Part shown: positions 29,436 to 50,610 of the stretch, in pieces
Layout: each line of letters begins with the position of its first letter
Position numbering within the stretch: the stretch's first letter is position 1
DNA from: Coprococcus sp. OM04-5BH
Lineage (GTDB): Bacteria > Bacillota > Clostridia > Lachnospirales > Lachnospiraceae
Assembly (NCBI RefSeq): GCF_003482105.1
Contig: NZ_QULM01000001.1
Location: 744,001 to 808,000, forward strand
Direction of reading: 5' to 3'
Length of the DNA: 64,000 bases
Notes under the pieces: generated by a model
Told to the model about the DNA's origin: nothing
What the model saw: only the letters and a program-made list of their open reading frames with translations
Databases searched by the model: none
Made by a program: the position numbers and the translations under genes

Positions 29436-29628
29436 TATGTTCTTACCGGATGTGTCAAGTTTTCTATGAAAACTTGATATGTAGCTCCGGCCATTTGCCA
29501 GAGGAGGTACCCATGCATCGTAGATGCATATAAAATGGTACCGACGATATGCCGCCCAATGAAATGAGGGGGCAATACTTAAAAAGGCAAATTTTGCATG
29601 GCTGGAGTTCGATGACAGGAGGTAAAAA
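29436..29628 (+). promoter_or_regulatory. Structured spacer between ntpE and ntpC
   Basis: Four stems can be drawn: TCAAGTTTTC with GAAAACTTGA (29455-29477, loop of 3); GGTACC-C-ATGCAT with ATGCAT and GGTACC (29506-29542); GCCGCCC with GGGGGC (29551-29573, one bulge); and a short GCAAA/TTTGC stem near 29586. The ntpC ribosome binding site AGGAGG follows. The rest of this operon has short spacers, so this one is likely to set subunit stoichiometry or mRNA processing. Confidence 0.55.
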
Positions 29629-41648: not shown

Positions 41649-41716
41649 TTTCCCACCACCCCATAACCGTATAATCAAGAAAAAGTTGATAAACAAGTTA
41701 TGGGAGGATGAAAGAA

Positions 41717-42469
41717 ATGAGTACTAACGACATTAACAATTCAAACAATACAAACGGACAGGGAGTATCCGGTACATATGGTTCTATACCGACACCGAAT
41801 ACAATGTATCAGAACAGCCAGTATCAGAATACTGGATATGCAAATACTGGATACGCCGCCGGCGATTATCAGGGCTACGGATATCAGAACACATCATATA
41901 CCGGAGCGGCGTATAACAACAGCACAACACAGGATGGCGGATATTCAGGCACACAGCCATCAAAGGATGTCTTCAAGGATGTATTTGTTGAGGAGACAGA
42001 GAGCGTAGTTGCTACACTTGATAACAGCTATGTCAAGAATATGGTGACAGGTCAGGGTGTTAAGAAAGATCAGGTAGTGCTGTCGGATAAGAGATTGTAT
42101 TACAATCACAAAAAGGGGATTATTGATACTTCTGCTTCAAGAGAATGTGTGAATGTAGATGATATTACAGGAACCAAGATTGCGAATACAAGCCGTGTTG
42201 GTTTTTTGATCAGCGCGGTGGTGATATTCATAATCGGACTCATCATCAGATCAGCAGTCCCTAAGAGTATGAGTGGTGTGGTATTGGCATTGGCAATAAT
42301 GATACCACTGGCATATATCATTGGATTTTTCATCACAAAGAATAAGTACCTCTTTGTTGAATATGCAGGTGGTCAAATAGCTTTAAAGGTAAAGCTCTAC
42401 GGCGTGGATAATGTAATTGCATTCCAGAAAGCAATATACAAGACCAAGGCTAAGAATGCTCACAAGTAA
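41717..42469 (+). CDS. Tyr/Asn/Gln-rich membrane protein
   Basis: A 250-residue protein. The first 85 residues are low complexity with repeated Y-Q-N-T and G-Y units (YQNTGYANTGYAAGDYQGYG). A soluble part follows at 90-165 that looks like a PH-like or bPH domain, including VVLSDKRLYYNHKKG. Then come two transmembrane helices (FLISAVVIFIIGLIIR and VVLALAIMIPLAYIIGFFI) and a C-terminal strand region. The ATG at 41717 follows GGGAGG by 9 nt; the earlier ATG at 41708 touches it. Function unknown. Confidence 0.75.
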   Translation: MSTNDINNSNNTNGQGVSGTYGSIPTPNTMYQNSQYQNTGYANTGYAAGDYQGYGYQNTSYTGAAYNNSTTQDGGYSGTQPSKDVFKDVFVEETESVVATLDNSYVKNMVTGQGVKKDQVVLSDKRLYYNHKKGIIDTSASRECVNVDDITGTKIANTSRVGFLISAVVIFIIGLIIRSAVPKSMSGVVLALAIMIPLAYIIGFFITKNKYLFVEYAGGQIALKVKLYGVDNVIAFQKAIYKTKAKNAHK

Positions 42470-44530: not shown

Positions 44531-44559
44531 TTTAAAAAATTACCTTCTTTTGTTATAAT
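44531..44559 (+). promoter_or_regulatory. Promoter of the three-gene module
   Basis: TTTAAA (44531-44536) and TATAAT (44554-44559) are 17 nt apart. A small CTGTA/TACAG hairpin (44571-44589) follows within the leader. Confidence 0.5.
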
Positions 44560-44727
44560 CACTTTATACGTCTGTATGTAATTATACAGATTATAAGGTC
44601 TAAAAACAAGTCTAAGACCTGTTTTAATGTAATGGCAACGGAAAAAGTGCAACATGTCTGCATGTCTGCATTGGGCGACTGCCGATATTAAAAAACGGGG
44701 TGACATGTTGGTTCAGGAGATTTTGAT

Positions 44728-47700
44728 ATGAAGGCGATTGTAGAAGAATATGCCAGGGGCGAGTTCGAGGTCAAGAGACCTGAGGTAGAGATATCCGTGG
44801 CAAGACTGGCTCTTGAGGTAGAGACGGGAACCCTGTACAGGGGTTCATTCACAATTAAATCTGCAAATGACATGAATATAAAGCTTATGGTATTTGACAG
44901 CAGATACCTTATAGATTTCAAGAGTCATACCTTTGTGGGCAGGAAGAATGAGATTGCCTTTTCTTTTAATGCGGAAAATATTGAACCGGGAAAGACATTT
45001 GTGGGTAATATAAATGTGGTCTCAGACGGCGGTGAGTTCAGGATACCTTATAACATTGAGGTGGTTGAACCGATGATCACCGTGGGAGATAAGAAGATAA
45101 AGGATCTGTTCCAATTTGCTGCATTTGCAGAGGAGGCACCGGGCGAAGCCCTTACGGTGTTCCTTGATGATGACTTCAAGAGAGTGTTCTTAAAGGACAA
45201 GGACATGGAGGCAAGGGCATACCACAGCCTGAGAAAATGTGTGAACATGGAACAGGCTATGGAAGATTTCCTTGTGTACACCCATAAGAAGAGGGCACTT
45301 ACACTGCAGGCGGCAGAGAAGGAGATCCTTATCGAAATGCCAACTGAGCTTGTGAGAGCCAGTATCAATATAAGCAAGAATACCTGGGGATATGTGAAGG
45401 CTGCCGTAAGGAGCGACTGTGATTTCCTTATGCCGGAGATGAAGGAGATCGATCGTGACAGCTTCACAGGCAATAACTGTAAGCTCACATTCCTTATTAA
45501 CCCTGACAGGATCAAGGACGGAGTAAATACCGGCAATATCTACGTTGAGAATCCGTATCAGACCATCTGTATCAAGATAGGAATAAAGCTTCCGGATACA
45601 GAGAAGATTGCTCCGAAGGTCAGAGAGATGAACCTGATTGTGAAGAGGGATGAAGAGGCAATAGTCAGGGCATATATAGATTTCAGGACTGACAGGATAG
45701 ATTTGTCTAAGTACATAGATACCACCAAGATATGTCTTGTTGAACTTCTCAAGTTCAGACCCGAGATGAAGTTATACAGGCTGGGGCTGCTCCATATGAA
45801 CATCCTTGAGGGAAGGATCGAGTATGCAAAGCATGAGTTTGAGAGGATAGACAGTGAAAATCCCGAGAGAAAAGATGGAGATATGGAGAGGTGCTATTAC
45901 AGCTACCTTAAGGCACTGGTTACCAGGGATGAAACTGTCATTAAAGAGACTGCAGCTATGACCAGAGAGTGTTTCAGAAGCAACAGGGATAAATTGTTTT
46001 ACTTCTGGATACTTCTTTTTATAGATATAAGATACACAGAGGACAAATGGACTTTATATGAGGACATACAGACTCTGTACGATATGGGAATCAACAGTCC
46101 CATTATATATTTTGAGATATGTGACATGTTCAACAAGCAGCCTCTTATGTGCAAGCAGGCAGGGCTTCTTGAGATATCGGCCATAAGATGGGGCATGAGG
46201 CATGACTTTATTTCCGAAGATGTGTTGATGGAGTATATCAAGGCATGTGGAAGACTTAAGATTTTTGATGAACATGCATTTAAGCTCCTTGAGGAGATTT
46301 ATGAGGTTCATAGGTTCACTGAGGCTCTTAATGTAATCTGTGGTATCCTCATAAGAAATCACAGGTATGACATGGCATATCATGAGTATTACAGTAAGGC
46401 CTTAGAGGATAATCTTAAGTATATCGGGCTTAACGAGTGCTTCCTTAAGAGCATGGACAAGTCCAGATATGACCTTATACCTGAGGCGATACTCAGATAC
46501 TTCTTATACAAGAACACCCTTGATGAGAAGGAACTGGCATACCTTTACGCCAACATAATCATGAACAAGGAAGCAAATGGCAGTGTATATAATGAATATA
46601 CACCATCCATGACTGCCTTCATGGAGAAGATGATAGTTAAGGGAGAGGTGAGCGATGATCTCACAGTGATCTATGATGAGTTCTTAGAGCCTGAGACCGT
46701 CAGCGAAGAATTTGCCCCGACCCTGATAAATATAATATTCAGAAGAAAGTTTGTATGCAGGAATAAAAACATAAAGACAGTGATCGTAAGCCATGGGGAA
46801 CTTAAGGATGCCCAGGTGGTAAATGTTAAAAACGGTGAAGCCTATGTGGAGATTGTATCAAAGGATGTGGTGCTCACACTCCTTGACGGCAGGGGAGGCA
46901 GGTATGCCGGATCTGTGGGATACAGGCTTGAGAGGATCGTGGATGAGAAGAGCTATATGGATATCTGCAAGGAATATAATTTCAAGGATTACAGATATCT
47001 GTTATGTGCATACAACAACATTGACAGCTTTGATAATAAGGATTCAGAACATATAAATATTGCCAGAGACATAATTGCCTGTCCTGAGCTTTCAGACAAG
47101 ATCAAGCAGCAGGCTGTAAGACAGATGATCAGCTACTATCATGAGAATTATGATGGTGAGATACTGGCGAAATACATGCTTAAGCTGGATCTTGACTATG
47201 TTAAGCCTTATGACGCCACAGAGCTTACAGAGTATATGGTAGAGCTTGACCTTATGGACATGGCATTTGACATGGTGATGAGGTTCGGCTATATGGATGT
47301 GGCAGTGGAGCCGTTGGTGAAGCTTGCGGAGTATGGCATAGGCAGCAAGAAGTACGAGGATACCAGGGAGCTGATATCCATGTGCGTATATCTCTACAAG
47401 AGAGGCTACGCAACGAAGAACATTCTTTCTTTCCTTGGAAACAACTTCAACGGTTCCACCACGGACATGGCAGATCTCTTCAAGAGCGTAAGCAATACCT
47501 ACAGAGATATAGATATGCTGGCAGAGAATATCCTTGCCCAGAGTATGTTCGCAAATGGATATACGGAATCCATATATGATATATTTGATGTGTACTACAA
47601 GGGCAGGAGCAGAGGCATGGTCATAAAGGCCTTCCTCAGATATTGTGCCCACCAGTACCTTATAAAGGAACAGAAGATTCCTGCGAATGTCATGGAGTGC

Positions 47701-48294
47701 CTGTACTGTGAGATAGAGAAAATGAACATTACAGACGAGATATCCAGAATGGCACTGCTGTATTTCTTCAGCAATTGCGGAGGACATTACAACAGGGAGC
47801 AGAAGGAATGGATCAGAAAGAATGTGAAGGCATTTGTGAGTGCGGGAAAGATACTCCCGTTTTTCCGTGCCTTTGTAAGCTTCGTAACGCTGCCGGGAGA
47901 CACAGACTTCAAGACCTATATAATATTCAAGGGTGAGAAGGACATGTCGGTATGGATCAGCTACAGCTTCGGAAATGAAAGCGTTAATATGGCGAAGTAC
48001 AAATCCGAAAGGATGAACGAGATAATACCGGGAGTGTATGTTAAGGAAGTGGTTGTATTCCATGGGGAAAATCTCGTATATTCAATAGATTGTGATGAGA
48101 GCGGCAGAAGCTCCATAGTGGAGAGTGAAGCATTGAAGAATAAGCCACTCGACAAGGGAAGCAGCAACAGATTTGAGCTTATAAACCACATGCTCATAAG
48201 TCAGGAAACAAGAGATGACCAGGCCCTTATGGAGGCCATGGAGACATATCTTAACAATATACATTTCTTCGAGGAGAACCTGATCATATTGTAG
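44728..48294 (+). CDS. Very large solenoid protein, DUF5717-like
   Basis: A 1188-residue protein that resembles the Lachnospiraceae family I recall as DUF5717 (not verified). Residues 1-110 and about 190-300 read as two beta-sandwich-like domains (LYRGSFTIKSAN, TFVGNINVVSDGGEFRIPYNIEV). From about 310 to 1080 it is helical with many Tyr/Leu/Asp repeats, like a TPR or armadillo solenoid, and a final beta segment follows. There is no signal peptide or membrane helix, so it is probably cytoplasmic. It heads an operon with an Hsp70-like and a TPR protein. GGTTCAGGAG precedes the ATG. Confidence 0.8.
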   Translation: MKAIVEEYARGEFEVKRPEVEISVARLALEVETGTLYRGSFTIKSANDMNIKLMVFDSRYLIDFKSHTFVGRKNEIAFSFNAENIEPGKTFVGNINVVSDGGEFRIPYNIEVVEPMITVGDKKIKDLFQFAAFAEEAPGEALTVFLDDDFKRVFLKDKDMEARAYHSLRKCVNMEQAMEDFLVYTHKKRALTLQAAEKEILIEMPTELVRASINISKNTWGYVKAAVRSDCDFLMPEMKEIDRDSFTGNNCKLTFLINPDRIKDGVNTGNIYVENPYQTICIKIGIKLPDTEKIAPKVREMNLIVKRDEEAIVRAYIDFRTDRIDLSKYIDTTKICLVELLKFRPEMKLYRLGLLHMNILEGRIEYAKHEFERIDSENPERKDGDMERCYYSYLKALVTRDETVIKETAAMTRECFRSNRDKLFYFWILLFIDIRYTEDKWTLYEDIQTLYDMGINSPIIYFEICDMFNKQPLMCKQAGLLEISAIRWGMRHDFISEDVLMEYIKACGRLKIFDEHAFKLLEEIYEVHRFTEALNVICGILIRNHRYDMAYHEYYSKALEDNLKYIGLNECFLKSMDKSRYDLIPEAILRYFLYKNTLDEKELAYLYANIIMNKEANGSVYNEYTPSMTAFMEKMIVKGEVSDDLTVIYDEFLEPETVSEEFAPTLINIIFRRKFVCRNKNIKTVIVSHGELKDAQVVNVKNGEAYVEIVSKDVVLTLLDGRGGRYAGSVGYRLERIVDEKSYMDICKEYNFKDYRYLLCAYNNIDSFDNKDSEHINIARDIIACPELSDKIKQQAVRQMISYYHENYDGEILAKYMLKLDLDYVKPYDATELTEYMVELDLMDMAFDMVMRFGYMDVAVEPLVKLAEYGIGSKKYEDTRELISMCVYLYKRGYATKNILSFLGNNFNGSTTDMADLFKSVSNTYRDIDMLAENILAQSMFANGYTESIYDIFDVYYKGRSRGMVIKAFLRYCAHQYLIKEQKIPANVMECLYCEIEKMNITDEISRMALLYFFSNCGGHYNREQKEWIRKNVKAFVSAGKILPFFRAFVSFVTLPGDTDFKTYIIFKGEKDMSVWISYSFGNESVNMAKYKSERMNEIIPGVYVKEVVVFHGENLVYSIDCDESGRSSIVESEALKNKPLDKGSSNRFELINHMLISQETRDDQALMEAMETYLNNIHFFEENLIIL

Positions 48295-48367
48295 GCAATG
48301 TCACGAGACCATAAGGGTAGCATGGTACAGATATTTTAGCAAACAGAAATTTGCAGGAGATAGATAA

Positions 48368-49678
48368 ATGGCGGAATTTTCATTGTATCTCGGCATGGAT
48401 ATAGAGCCGGATCATACACAGCTTAGTTATTACAATATACAGAAGAGAGAACCTGAATCTGTAAGTGATACTGCAGATGAAGCTTCCTACCTCCTGCCTA
48501 ATACCCTGTATGTGGCAACAAAGACCGAACAGACAGAGGGGGAGGCCGACAGGAAATGGTATGTGGGAAGCCAGGCGGTGAGACGGGGTATAGACGGCTC
48601 AGGTATGCTGGTGGATGATATATACAACCGCGTCATGTTGAATGACGATGTATGGATAAATGACAAGAAATACAGAGCCAGGGATTTATTTGTCAAGATG
48701 GCAAGGCTCCATCTGGAGGAGTTCCTAAAGAGCTTTGATGAATATACCATTGAGAAGCTGGTGGTCACAGTTGCAGACACAGATCCTTATATAATAGATG
48801 CTTTAAGGAAACTGAGGATAGAACTTAAGCTTGATGAGGAACAGTTTGAGATACAGGGACACGAGAGAAGTGCTGTGTATTATATATTCCATCAGCCTGA
48901 GGTACTTAGAAACAACAGCGTGGCATTATTTGACTACAGTAAAAAAGGACTGTTCTACTATAGCTTAAGCCAGCAGAGAAACAGATCTCCGTACAGGATA
49001 GAGATAAGCGAGGCTGATTTCTCAGACAAGATGTCCGGGGATGGTCAGGCTGCTGACAAGGAGGATCTTGACGATCTCTTTTTAGAGGTGGTTAAGGAGA
49101 CTGTCACACTGGAGAACATTTCTTCTGTATACCTTACAGGTGTGGGCTTTGATGGTGACTGGATGGAGAGATCCACCAATTTCCTGTGCCAGGGCAGAAG
49201 AGTATTTGCCGGACAGAACATGTACGTGAAGGGCGCCTGCTACAGAGCATTTGCAGTACATGAGAAGAGAGATGTGCTGGACAATTACATCATCTGTTCA
49301 GATACGGTAGTGATGTATGACGTGGGTATCAACCTTATGGACAATGCCAATTCCCTGTATATCATCTCGGAAGCAGGCAGGGAATGGTTCAATACAAGAA
49401 ATAAGATCAGCATTTTCTTAGACGATACAGACAGACTTGATATAGTATTCAGAAATATGCTGACAGGAGATAAGACGGTCCAGAGTATGCAGATTGCAGG
49501 CCTGCCTAAGAGACCGCCGAAGACTACAAAGATATCACTTGAGGTGGAGTTTTATGACAGCGAAAGCGGAGCCATGATAATAAGGGATGAGGGCTTTGGT
49601 ATGCTCTATCCTACCACGAACAAGATATACAGGAAGGAATTCGATTTGCATGGGGAAGATAATAGTATGCAAGACTAA
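48368..49678 (+). CDS. Hsp70/actin-fold protein without nucleotide loops, DUF5716-like
   Basis: A 436-residue protein that resembles the family I recall as DUF5716 (not verified). The order of elements follows the Hsp70 nucleotide-binding domain: an N-terminal strand pair (LYLGMDIEPDHTQLSYYN), a P-N-T-L-Y-V segment and VGSQAVRRG, a middle strand pair (NSVALFDYSKKGLFYYSLSQ) where Hsp70 has DLGGGT, and SVYLTGVGFDGDWMERS where Hsp70 has a GGSTR loop. The glycine loops that bind phosphate are not conserved, so ATP binding is doubtful. The last 100 residues look like a beta-domain. GCAGGAG precedes the ATG. Confidence 0.75.
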   Translation: MAEFSLYLGMDIEPDHTQLSYYNIQKREPESVSDTADEASYLLPNTLYVATKTEQTEGEADRKWYVGSQAVRRGIDGSGMLVDDIYNRVMLNDDVWINDKKYRARDLFVKMARLHLEEFLKSFDEYTIEKLVVTVADTDPYIIDALRKLRIELKLDEEQFEIQGHERSAVYYIFHQPEVLRNNSVALFDYSKKGLFYYSLSQQRNRSPYRIEISEADFSDKMSGDGQAADKEDLDDLFLEVVKETVTLENISSVYLTGVGFDGDWMERSTNFLCQGRRVFAGQNMYVKGACYRAFAVHEKRDVLDNYIICSDTVVMYDVGINLMDNANSLYIISEAGREWFNTRNKISIFLDDTDRLDIVFRNMLTGDKTVQSMQIAGLPKRPPKTTKISLEVEFYDSESGAMIIRDEGFGMLYPTTNKIYRKEFDLHGEDNSMQD

Positions 49679-50486
49679 AACTGCAGATGATCCTTATATG
49701 TTCCTAAACACTAAGGTGTCGGTCTATTCCTATGAAGAGCTGTGTTACTATATATACAACAACATGGTGCTGATCGGCAGGGATGATGTAACGGAACGGC
49801 TTGCCATGTGGATAAGGAAGGAACTGGATATGCCGGAGCTTGCGGGAAGGCTTGAAAGTCTCATGGAGAAAGAAGCATTTACCCAGGATATTCTTATTGA
49901 AATAATCACCGCCGGCAATTATTATGGAACAGACGAGATACGTGCCTTCATGAAGGAGTGCCAGAAGATAAGGGGATATTCAAAGTACGAGCTTTTAAAG
50001 GTAAAGGCTGACGGCTACTGCCGTTATAAGCATTATATAAAGGCTGGAGCTATGTATGATGAGATAATAAAGAATTTTCCTGAGTCCCAGGGCACGGAGG
50101 TGTTCCTCGGAAATGTATATCACAACAAGGCTGTGGTGTTGTCCGGAAATCTCCAGAGGGAGGAGGCGAGACAGTGCTTCCTTAAGGCATATAAGCTTAA
50201 CCACAATGAGGAGTCACTGATAGAGTATCTTTATGTGACAGCCGTTACTGTGGATTCTGCCACATTAAAGAGGGAGATCAAGAGACATGGTATGCCGGAG
50301 AGCTTCTTCGATGATGTTATGATGGAGATCGCTGACTGCAAGGATGATGTGGCAGAGATGACCATATATAATAAAGTCCAGAAGGCGGTGTATAATAAGC
50401 TTCATGGAAATATTTCCGACTATGACAGACGAGTGGACAGCGTTCTTACGGAGCTTAAGGACGATTTCAGAAAACAGCTGGCATAG
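49650..50486 (+). CDS. TPR-like helical protein
   Basis: A 278-residue soluble protein. Residues 100-225 carry TPR-like helix pairs (YELLKVKADGYCRYKHYIKA, EIIKNFPESQG, NVYHNKAVVLSGNLQREEAR, CFLKAYKLNHNEESLIEY). The N-terminal 70 residues form a separate helical domain. It starts at ATG 49650 and overlaps the end of the previous gene by 29 nt, with AGGAAGG before the ATG. It is the third gene of the module with the solenoid and Hsp70-like proteins and likely binds one of them. Confidence 0.75.
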   Translation: MGKIIVCKTKTADDPYMFLNTKVSVYSYEELCYYIYNNMVLIGRDDVTERLAMWIRKELDMPELAGRLESLMEKEAFTQDILIEIITAGNYYGTDEIRAFMKECQKIRGYSKYELLKVKADGYCRYKHYIKAGAMYDEIIKNFPESQGTEVFLGNVYHNKAVVLSGNLQREEARQCFLKAYKLNHNEESLIEYLYVTAVTVDSATLKREIKRHGMPESFFDDVMMEIADCKDDVAEMTIYNKVQKAVYNKLHGNISDYDRRVDSVLTELKDDFRKQLA

Positions 50487-50539: not shown

Positions 50540-50610
50540 GTGTCACAGACATTATTATAAAGAAAAGCACGCCATAACTTCGTGAGCCGTGCCATTAGAT
50601 AGAAAGGATG
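50540..50610 (+). promoter_or_regulatory. Repeated leader element, copy C (before valS)
   Basis: A short TGTC-ACA-GACA hairpin, then GCACGCCATAACTTCGTGAG and CCGTGCCATTAG just before the ribosome binding site GAAAGG. GCACG can pair with CGTGC, or CACG with the earlier CGTG. Copies A and B are at 12549 and 24114. No T-box bulge sequence is present here. Confidence 0.55.

Follow-up and report, generated by a model that had tools for sequence, protein, structure and literature searches.

A three-gene locus of Lachnospiraceae with a degenerate Hsp70, possibly the reduced core of a larger Hsp70 machine

Gene content of the locus

The window analysed here is a stretch of 64,000 nucleotides from Coprococcus sp. 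OM04-5BH (contig NZ_QULM01000001.1, positions 744,001 to 808,000). Three open reading frames follow one another on its forward strand, at 44728-48294 (1188 aa), 48368-49678 (436 aa) and 49587-50486. The start position of relatives of the third (alignment of 30 rows) points to the ATG at 49650, giving a protein of 278 aa (49650-50486, +) whose gene overlaps the preceding one by 29 nt. An earlier note on this DNA had described just such an arrangement, a 1188-residue and a 436-residue protein followed by an overlapping TPR protein on the same strand, and the reading frames together with the starts of relatives confirm it. The first protein was assigned to DUF5717 from its reading frame, Pfam and profile comparison (PF18984, 1.8e-296; PF18983, 1.3e-70), and the second, a degenerate Hsp70 as shown below, to DUF5716 from Pfam and profile comparison (PF18980, 6.7e-95); both are members of their families above the curated cut-off. 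The third (reading frame, Pfam and alignment of relatives) matches TPR families only, all below the curated cut-offs (TPR_2, 0.0025). Pfam gives no function for DUF5716 or DUF5717, in agreement with the note, which had known both merely as uncharacterised families. The three proteins have no match in PHROGs, NCBIfam yielded nothing near a cut-off, and neither single proteins nor profiles found anything useful among PDB sequences; Rfam has no match at the operon, and the hydropathy threshold for a membrane span is reached by none of the window's proteins.

A divergent hisC-like gene lies upstream of the trio and valS downstream, at 50608 (valS, hisC and most neighbours were named by eye). A single promoter driving all three genes, as had been suggested, is plausible: a candidate promoter-like site (TTTAAA-17-TATAAT, 10/12, with TG ahead of the -10) is found at 44531-44559 (+), but such sites occur in the window at the chance rate (17 found against 16.4 +/- 4.4 in shuffles). 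A second candidate (11/12) begins at 50486, ahead of valS. Elsewhere in the window, a GA-cis RNA (RF02987, 82.8 bits) at 29499-29583 (+) is the sole Rfam match at gathering threshold, and 41708-42469 (+) encodes a protein of 253 aa with an N-terminal region rich in Asn, Gln, Tyr and Gly and hydrophobic stretches (by eye), which matches no Pfam family above cut-off.

The DUF5717 protein comprises two beta-sandwich-like domains (approximately residues 14-118 and 200-305), a probable long helical solenoid, suggested by weak hits of TPR_19 in two relatives (L164, 0.0046; L212, 0.0088), and the C-terminal DUF5717 domain. The two beta-domains match each other (60.6%, E 8e-5; reversed controls 3.0 and 3.7%) and look like a duplication. 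They are not matched by the C-terminal half of DUF5716.

Distribution and linkage of the trio

From the 99 DUF5716 relatives found by a contig scan, 80 loci were retained (81 with the window), the best of them from Coprococcus or other Lachnospiraceae-type assemblies; a DUF5716 protein 99% identical to that of the window is already known (P0001). DUF5717 and the TPR gene accompany DUF5716 in 75 of the 81 loci. The six without the full trio are L008, L044, L073 and L075, which end at contig ends, and L007 and L016, where an antisense frame seems to have been picked as the reading frame. Among the 74 pairs of DUF5716 and TPR genes that could be measured, with starts assigned mechanically, 54 overlap, 37 of them by a single base. 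Three Coprococcus-type DUF5716 proteins (P0094, P0018, P0035) end in an acidic, low-complexity extension of about 200-275 aa, the last residues of which are identical.

Among 100 genomes from the family that includes G001 (Eubacterium sp. MSJ-21, source of locus L062) and is taken to be Lachnospiraceae, PF18980 is present in 97, with exactly one match each, and PF18984 likewise in 97, some of its matches being split into two pieces. Both are found in 96 genomes, and the TPR gene in 95 by profile, to which local inspection added that of G364. The earlier note had asked whether the trio is commonly split across Lachnospiraceae, and it is not: the two DUFs share one contig in 92 of the 96 genomes that have both. 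The exceptions are G302, G343 and G347, which look like contig ends from their coordinates (G302 was also inspected), and G331, where DUF5717 is located apart from the rest; in G376 the TPR gene is on a different contig. In wider samples, 10 of 291 genomes of the class carry both DUF5716 and DUF5717 (one further genome has a weak partial DUF5717 match), all ten recur in the order sample described below, and the five of 398 phylum genomes with DUF5716 are all among these ten.

DUF5716 and the TPR protein are joined in a single reading frame of 684-723 aa in four of 97 genomes (L161, L162, L163, L164), where the TPR part occupies the place that the lid would have in an Hsp70. The inter-protein distances of the trio correlate at 0.94-0.98, and at 0.89-0.96 after correction by ValS, but at just 0.45-0.52 with those of HisC (40 of 81 loci); linkage and equal rates likewise raise such correlations. 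The trio also stays together beside other genes, namely rarA/pheS (L096), metK/purC (L097, named by eye) and folBK (L099), and the ten neighbours scanned of relocated or divergent copies have no common functional theme. In the reduced locus L166 a gene resembling a ribosome-binding GTPase lies close to DUF5717. The plasmid collection holds no match to the trio and the phage collection five weak ones. Three "Bacteriophage sp." GenBank records from human faeces (L196, L197 and L198; MT835486.1, MT835719.1 and MT835988.1) contain the DUF5717-DUF5716-TPR operon; they also hold the additional gene described in the next paragraph, L196 has pieces of valS, and they look like bacterial fragments. One further operon (L065) is in a record titled Bacteroidales, whose title or bin may be wrong.

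In 32 loci the next gene after TPR encodes a protein of 385-598 aa with two hydrophobic stretches and coiled coils (by eye), and 32 of 32 such proteins pass the hydropathy threshold. This fourth gene is present in 44 of the 100 family genomes, adjoining the TPR gene in each (that TPR gene being, in G384, a fragment on a short contig); it was not found in the other 56 and does not stand beside the trio in the window. The three-gene module first described is real, but the note had overlooked this membrane protein gene. DUF5717 proteins of at least 1290 aa occur in 31 loci between L003 and L079, none of which has the fourth gene.

An expanded Hsp70/GrpE operon in relatives

In a sample of 146 genomes of the order PF18980 was matched in 71, strongly (E < 1e-45) in 16 and weakly in 55, often in two adjacent genes. 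We inspected 15 expanded loci found via DUF5716, that of G394 and those of 14 of the 55 genomes with weak matches, and all 15 have neighbouring Hsp70-like genes and a long DUF5716 (one partial). Ten share the full order DUF5717, Hsp70-A (555-581 aa), long GrpE-like gene, long DUF5716, Hsp70-B, Hsp70-C with a VWA domain, and TPR; L199 has the same order with split reading frames, L202, L205, L209 and L210 are partial, and in L200 additional reading frames are interspersed. L199 and L207 have valS downstream, and these two loci and L208 also carry the fourth gene. Pfam identified HSP70 in the A, B and C proteins of L207 (2.6e-66, 1.4e-53 and 3.2e-88, the last with VWA) and GrpE in L207 (2.2e-9) and L212 (3.4e-12); the other loci were assigned by similarity. 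The trio itself stands, but the earlier note had missed this larger operon of relatives.

The Hsp70-VWA fusions (L207, 4046-6223; L212, 4299-6377) have 412 relatives at E <=1e-100 among 8000 scored candidates, including proteins of Epulopiscium, Defluviitaleaceae and Anaeropeptidivorans aminofermentans; the 120 listed of these 412 relatives carry VWA-type Pfam domains.

A search of 101 stretches (94 with a reduced DUF5716) found no GrpE-like gene, and over the same stretches the Hsp70-A and Hsp70-C profiles picked up only a protein of L172, a weak match in a 336-aa protein that reads by eye as MreB and was rejected. Matches of the GrpE-like profile in 56 of 291 class genomes were also set aside: they are weak (best 4e-10), fall at the C-terminal region of the profile and lie, in 54 of 57 cases, in reading frames whose length (170-240 aa) would be expected for an ordinary GrpE. 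PADLOC, run on 10 proteins, matched only Hsp70-B and Hsp70-C of L207, overlapping their Hsp70 domains.

DUF5716 as a degenerate Hsp70

A profile of 92 aligned DUF5716 members matched an Hsp70 profile (30 DnaK and 3 HscC-like proteins) at 96.1% (E 2.9e-9) over 383 columns spanning the ATPase and substrate-binding domains, and the 30 DnaK proteins alone at 95.1% (E 3.2e-8); the accepted relation of DnaK to FtsA reaches 92.8% in the same comparison. As controls against the whole profile, FtsA gave 0.9% (five sequences), a large FtsA-like family 1.4%, MreB 15.4%, six other families 0.1-0.5% and the reversed profile at most 0.3%; when the three parts of the profile were included, the six families stayed at or below 1.4% and the reversed profile at or below 0.6%. 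The N-terminal half matched Hsp70 at 96.9% (E 1.4e-10; reversed 0.1%), against 35.6% for MreB. The C-terminal half matched the substrate-binding beta domain (SBD-beta) of DnaK at 76.6% (2e-5) and whole DnaK at 45.1%, dropping to 35.2% once HscC-like proteins were added (HscC alone 0.9%), and Hsp70-B at 97.2% (3e-11). The middle part (165-300) has no DnaK match (the large FtsA-like family gave 7.1%) and is connected solely via the long form. Profile comparisons along this bridge gave short against long DUF5716 at 100% (5.6e-55), long DUF5716 against Hsp70-B at 100% (1.6e-73) and DUF5716 against Hsp70-B at 99.5% (3.3e-23), reversed profiles remaining at or below 1.1%. An HMM of Hsp70-B picks up the DUF5716 gene (E 8e-17 to 6e-6) in 85 of the 101 stretches, against 94 that contain one. 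The Pfam HSP70 model does not match the DUF5716 of the window (E up to 1), six other short or fused DUF5716 proteins (E up to 10) or the long DUF5716 of L207. In a tree of 69 rows one branch separates all DUF5716 from the canonical Hsp70s (100/100), Hsp70-B being nearest; the long form L199_10 groups with the short forms (100/100), which alone form a group at 81/96, and the long branches call for caution.

By these comparisons DUF5716 is a degenerate Hsp70, with a remnant of the ATPase domain (approximately residues 2-309; 48371-49294, +) and a substrate-binding beta domain (approximately residues 309-414; 49292-49609, +), both placed by profile mapping. The presence of the latter makes it Hsp70-like rather than actin-like. 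The earlier note had recognised an Hsp70/actin-type order of ATPase elements without both glycine loops, which holds in profiles and residue counts; the Hsp70 side of that reading stands, while the substrate-binding beta domain and the loss of subdomain IIB had been overlooked.

Subdomain IIB forms one wall of the nucleotide cleft of Hsp70s and is contacted by GrpE, and together with the hydrophobic interdomain linker it is commonly used by Hsp70 partners. Between residues 229 and 230 of the window protein the block matching residues 206-286 of a DnaK (L101), i.e., IIB, is missing; the spacing from D194 to G341 is 65-72 residues in 12 short DUF5716 proteins, 132-152 in the long forms and 143 in DnaK, so that the long form is degenerate yet keeps IIB. 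The glycine (phosphate) loops, including GGGT, are lost. The K70 position is Lys in none of 89 members (3 gaps among 92), T199 is replaced by Gly in 88 of 92, and the position of E171, residue 164 or 165 depending on the alignment route, is Glu at neither in any of the 92. All 15 long and 12 short forms lack K70 (2 short forms have gaps) and T199. Still conserved are D8 (D in 90 of 92), D194 (D in 76, E in 14) and one Gly of the adenosine motif (92 of 92). Hsp70-A, -B and -C retain D8, G10, T11, T12, K70, E171, D194, GGGT, D201 and both adenosine-motif glycines wherever the region is present, and vary at the R345 position. From established knowledge of Hsp70s it follows that the ATPase of DUF5716 is predicted to be dead.

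The hydrophobic linker LLLD reads mostly E, T, K/E, E in DUF5716, and the window protein terminates after SBD-beta, without a helical lid. In the peptide groove the I401 and F426 positions are hydrophobic in 92 of 92 members; two alignment routes disagree by two residues on V436 and I438, and one gives Asp at V436. The arch over the groove is changed, with Asp at the A429 position in 83 of 92, so that peptide binding may be lost too.

Possible origin and role of the trio

In our preferred reading, the trio of the window is the core, devoid of ATPase, of the Hsp70 machine of the expanded operon, which is apparently the older version of the unit. A derivation of the reduced form from the expanded operon is suggested by the loss of IIB, by the valS gene that neighbours both and by L199, which is intermediate. 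Taken as a whole, the explanation to which we give slightly better than an even chance is that the trio is what remains, as a core, of an Hsp70 chaperone machine specific to this order of Clostridia, and that it is now a nucleotide-independent platform. DUF5716, an Hsp70 closest to Hsp70-B, would have lost its catalytic residues first and, later in the lineage of the window, the whole of IIB. It would sit on the TPR protein and on the DUF5717 protein in a putative complex, for which the latter may act as a long scaffold and which the membrane protein, where present, may tether to the membrane. Whether this complex would be a standing platform, holding a client or partner protein without a nucleotide cycle, seems to us evenly balanced; in view of the altered arch and interdomain linker, static holding is favoured over a peptide-binding cycle. 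The earlier note had likewise suggested a scaffold or sensor in place of an ATPase.

Since DUF5716 is found in 15 of 15 expanded loci (which were located through it) and is the sole Hsp70 type of the reduced loci, the dead Hsp70 may be the core of the machine. IIB and the GrpE-like gene are both absent from the reduced form, which fits the contact of GrpE with IIB, and this joint absence is probably a single evolutionary event. More tentatively, and with somewhat less than even probability, we propose a novel ATP-independent chaperone platform whose conserved core is a dead Hsp70, a giant scaffold and a TPR protein standing in for the lid, while three intact Hsp70s (one with VWA) and a GrpE-like factor would be dispensable and would have been lost in one lineage together with the GrpE-docking subdomain. 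If so, such a platform would exist in almost every member of a family that dominates in the gut. Two Pfam families without function, present in nearly all sampled genomes of one family, gain a probable origin in an Hsp70 machine. The graded series from intact Hsp70-B to degenerate full-length DUF5716 to degenerate DUF5716 without IIB is a natural experiment on the parts of an Hsp70 needed without ATP. No description of the trio or the expanded operon was found among the titles and abstracts listed by searches of open-licence literature, where either name, DUF5716 or DUF5717, occurs in one paper, on an unrelated subject by its title.

Alternatively, the pseudo-Hsp70 complex might be a helper like Hsp110 or Ssz1 that recruits or tunes the ordinary DnaK, which would supply the ATPase that the operon Hsp70s supply in relatives. 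There the degenerate member adjoins three intact Hsp70s and a GrpE-like protein, and G001, a genome with the reduced trio, has an ordinary DnaK; but IIB and the hydrophobic linker, the usual partner contacts, are gone, and neither the trio nor the seven scanned operon proteins of L207 has a J-domain match, and we regard this role as unlikely. A nucleotide sensor, binding ATP or some other ligand but not hydrolysing it and signalling via the TPR protein and the scaffold, would account for the retained acidic pocket positions (D8 and D194) and the invariant adenosine-motif Gly, yet the loss of both phosphate loops, Lys70 and the cleft wall formed by IIB makes it improbable. The three genes might also form no complex, being useful genes merely linked beside valS, as valS and hisC-like genes are likewise frequent neighbours. 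Given that the set is also together beside other genes (L096, L097, L099), and given the DUF5716-TPR fusions and the excess distance correlation, we consider this quite improbable. A defence-like system for biological conflict, resembling the GAP1-N2 systems with Hsp70 and GrpE, has in its favour the similar Hsp70, GrpE and FNIII/TPR neighbourhoods described in PMC7159879 and the GTPase-like gene of L166; we give it very little weight, as the trio and the seven L207 proteins have no GTPase match, PADLOC finds only the Hsp70 domains of Hsp70-B and -C among the 10 proteins, and the trio is near-universal, single-copy and without match in the plasmid collection. An actin-like filament scaffold of FtsA/MreB type, which would share the ASKHA elements of lobe I and has the weak MreB match (15.4%; N-terminal half 35.6%) in its favour, was rejected as hardly tenable at 96.1% for Hsp70 against 0.9% for FtsA (five sequences), with a C-terminal half matching the Hsp70 substrate-binding domain and Hsp70-B as the nearest canonical group.

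Comparison with known systems

Like Hsp70/DnaK, DUF5716 has lobe I of the ATPase domain and SBD-beta, co-linear over the 383 columns; unlike it, DUF5716 lacks Lys70, GGGT, IIB and the hydrophobic linker, and the window protein the lid. Pseudo-Hsp70s are known in eukaryotes, namely Ssz1 of RAC and Hsp110. DUF5716 resembles these as an Hsp70 that seems to have turned into a non-cycling partner, but it is bacterial, has lost all of IIB and is accompanied by TPR and DUF5717 proteins instead of a J-protein. For such a pseudo-Hsp70, homology and residue loss are seen in DUF5716, and a partner is suggested by fusion and linkage.

Neighbourhoods of Hsp70, GrpE and TPR genes are already in print in another setting: Kaur et al. 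(2020; PMC7159879) describe Hsp70, GrpE and FNIII/TPR neighbourhoods in conflict systems centred on GAP1-N2 GTPases; in some of these neighbourhoods a second protein has the Hsp70 domain but lacks its peptide-binding domain. The excerpts of a paper on DnaK duplication (PMC11019930) do not mention the expanded operon. Unlike the GAP1-N2 systems, the scanned operon proteins (the trio and seven of L207) include no GTPase or GAP1, the core locus is of one order and the reduced form has no ATPase Hsp70 alongside. Similar to these systems as described there, the expanded operon brings together Hsp70s, GrpE, beta-domains and TPR, one of its Hsp70s being reduced.
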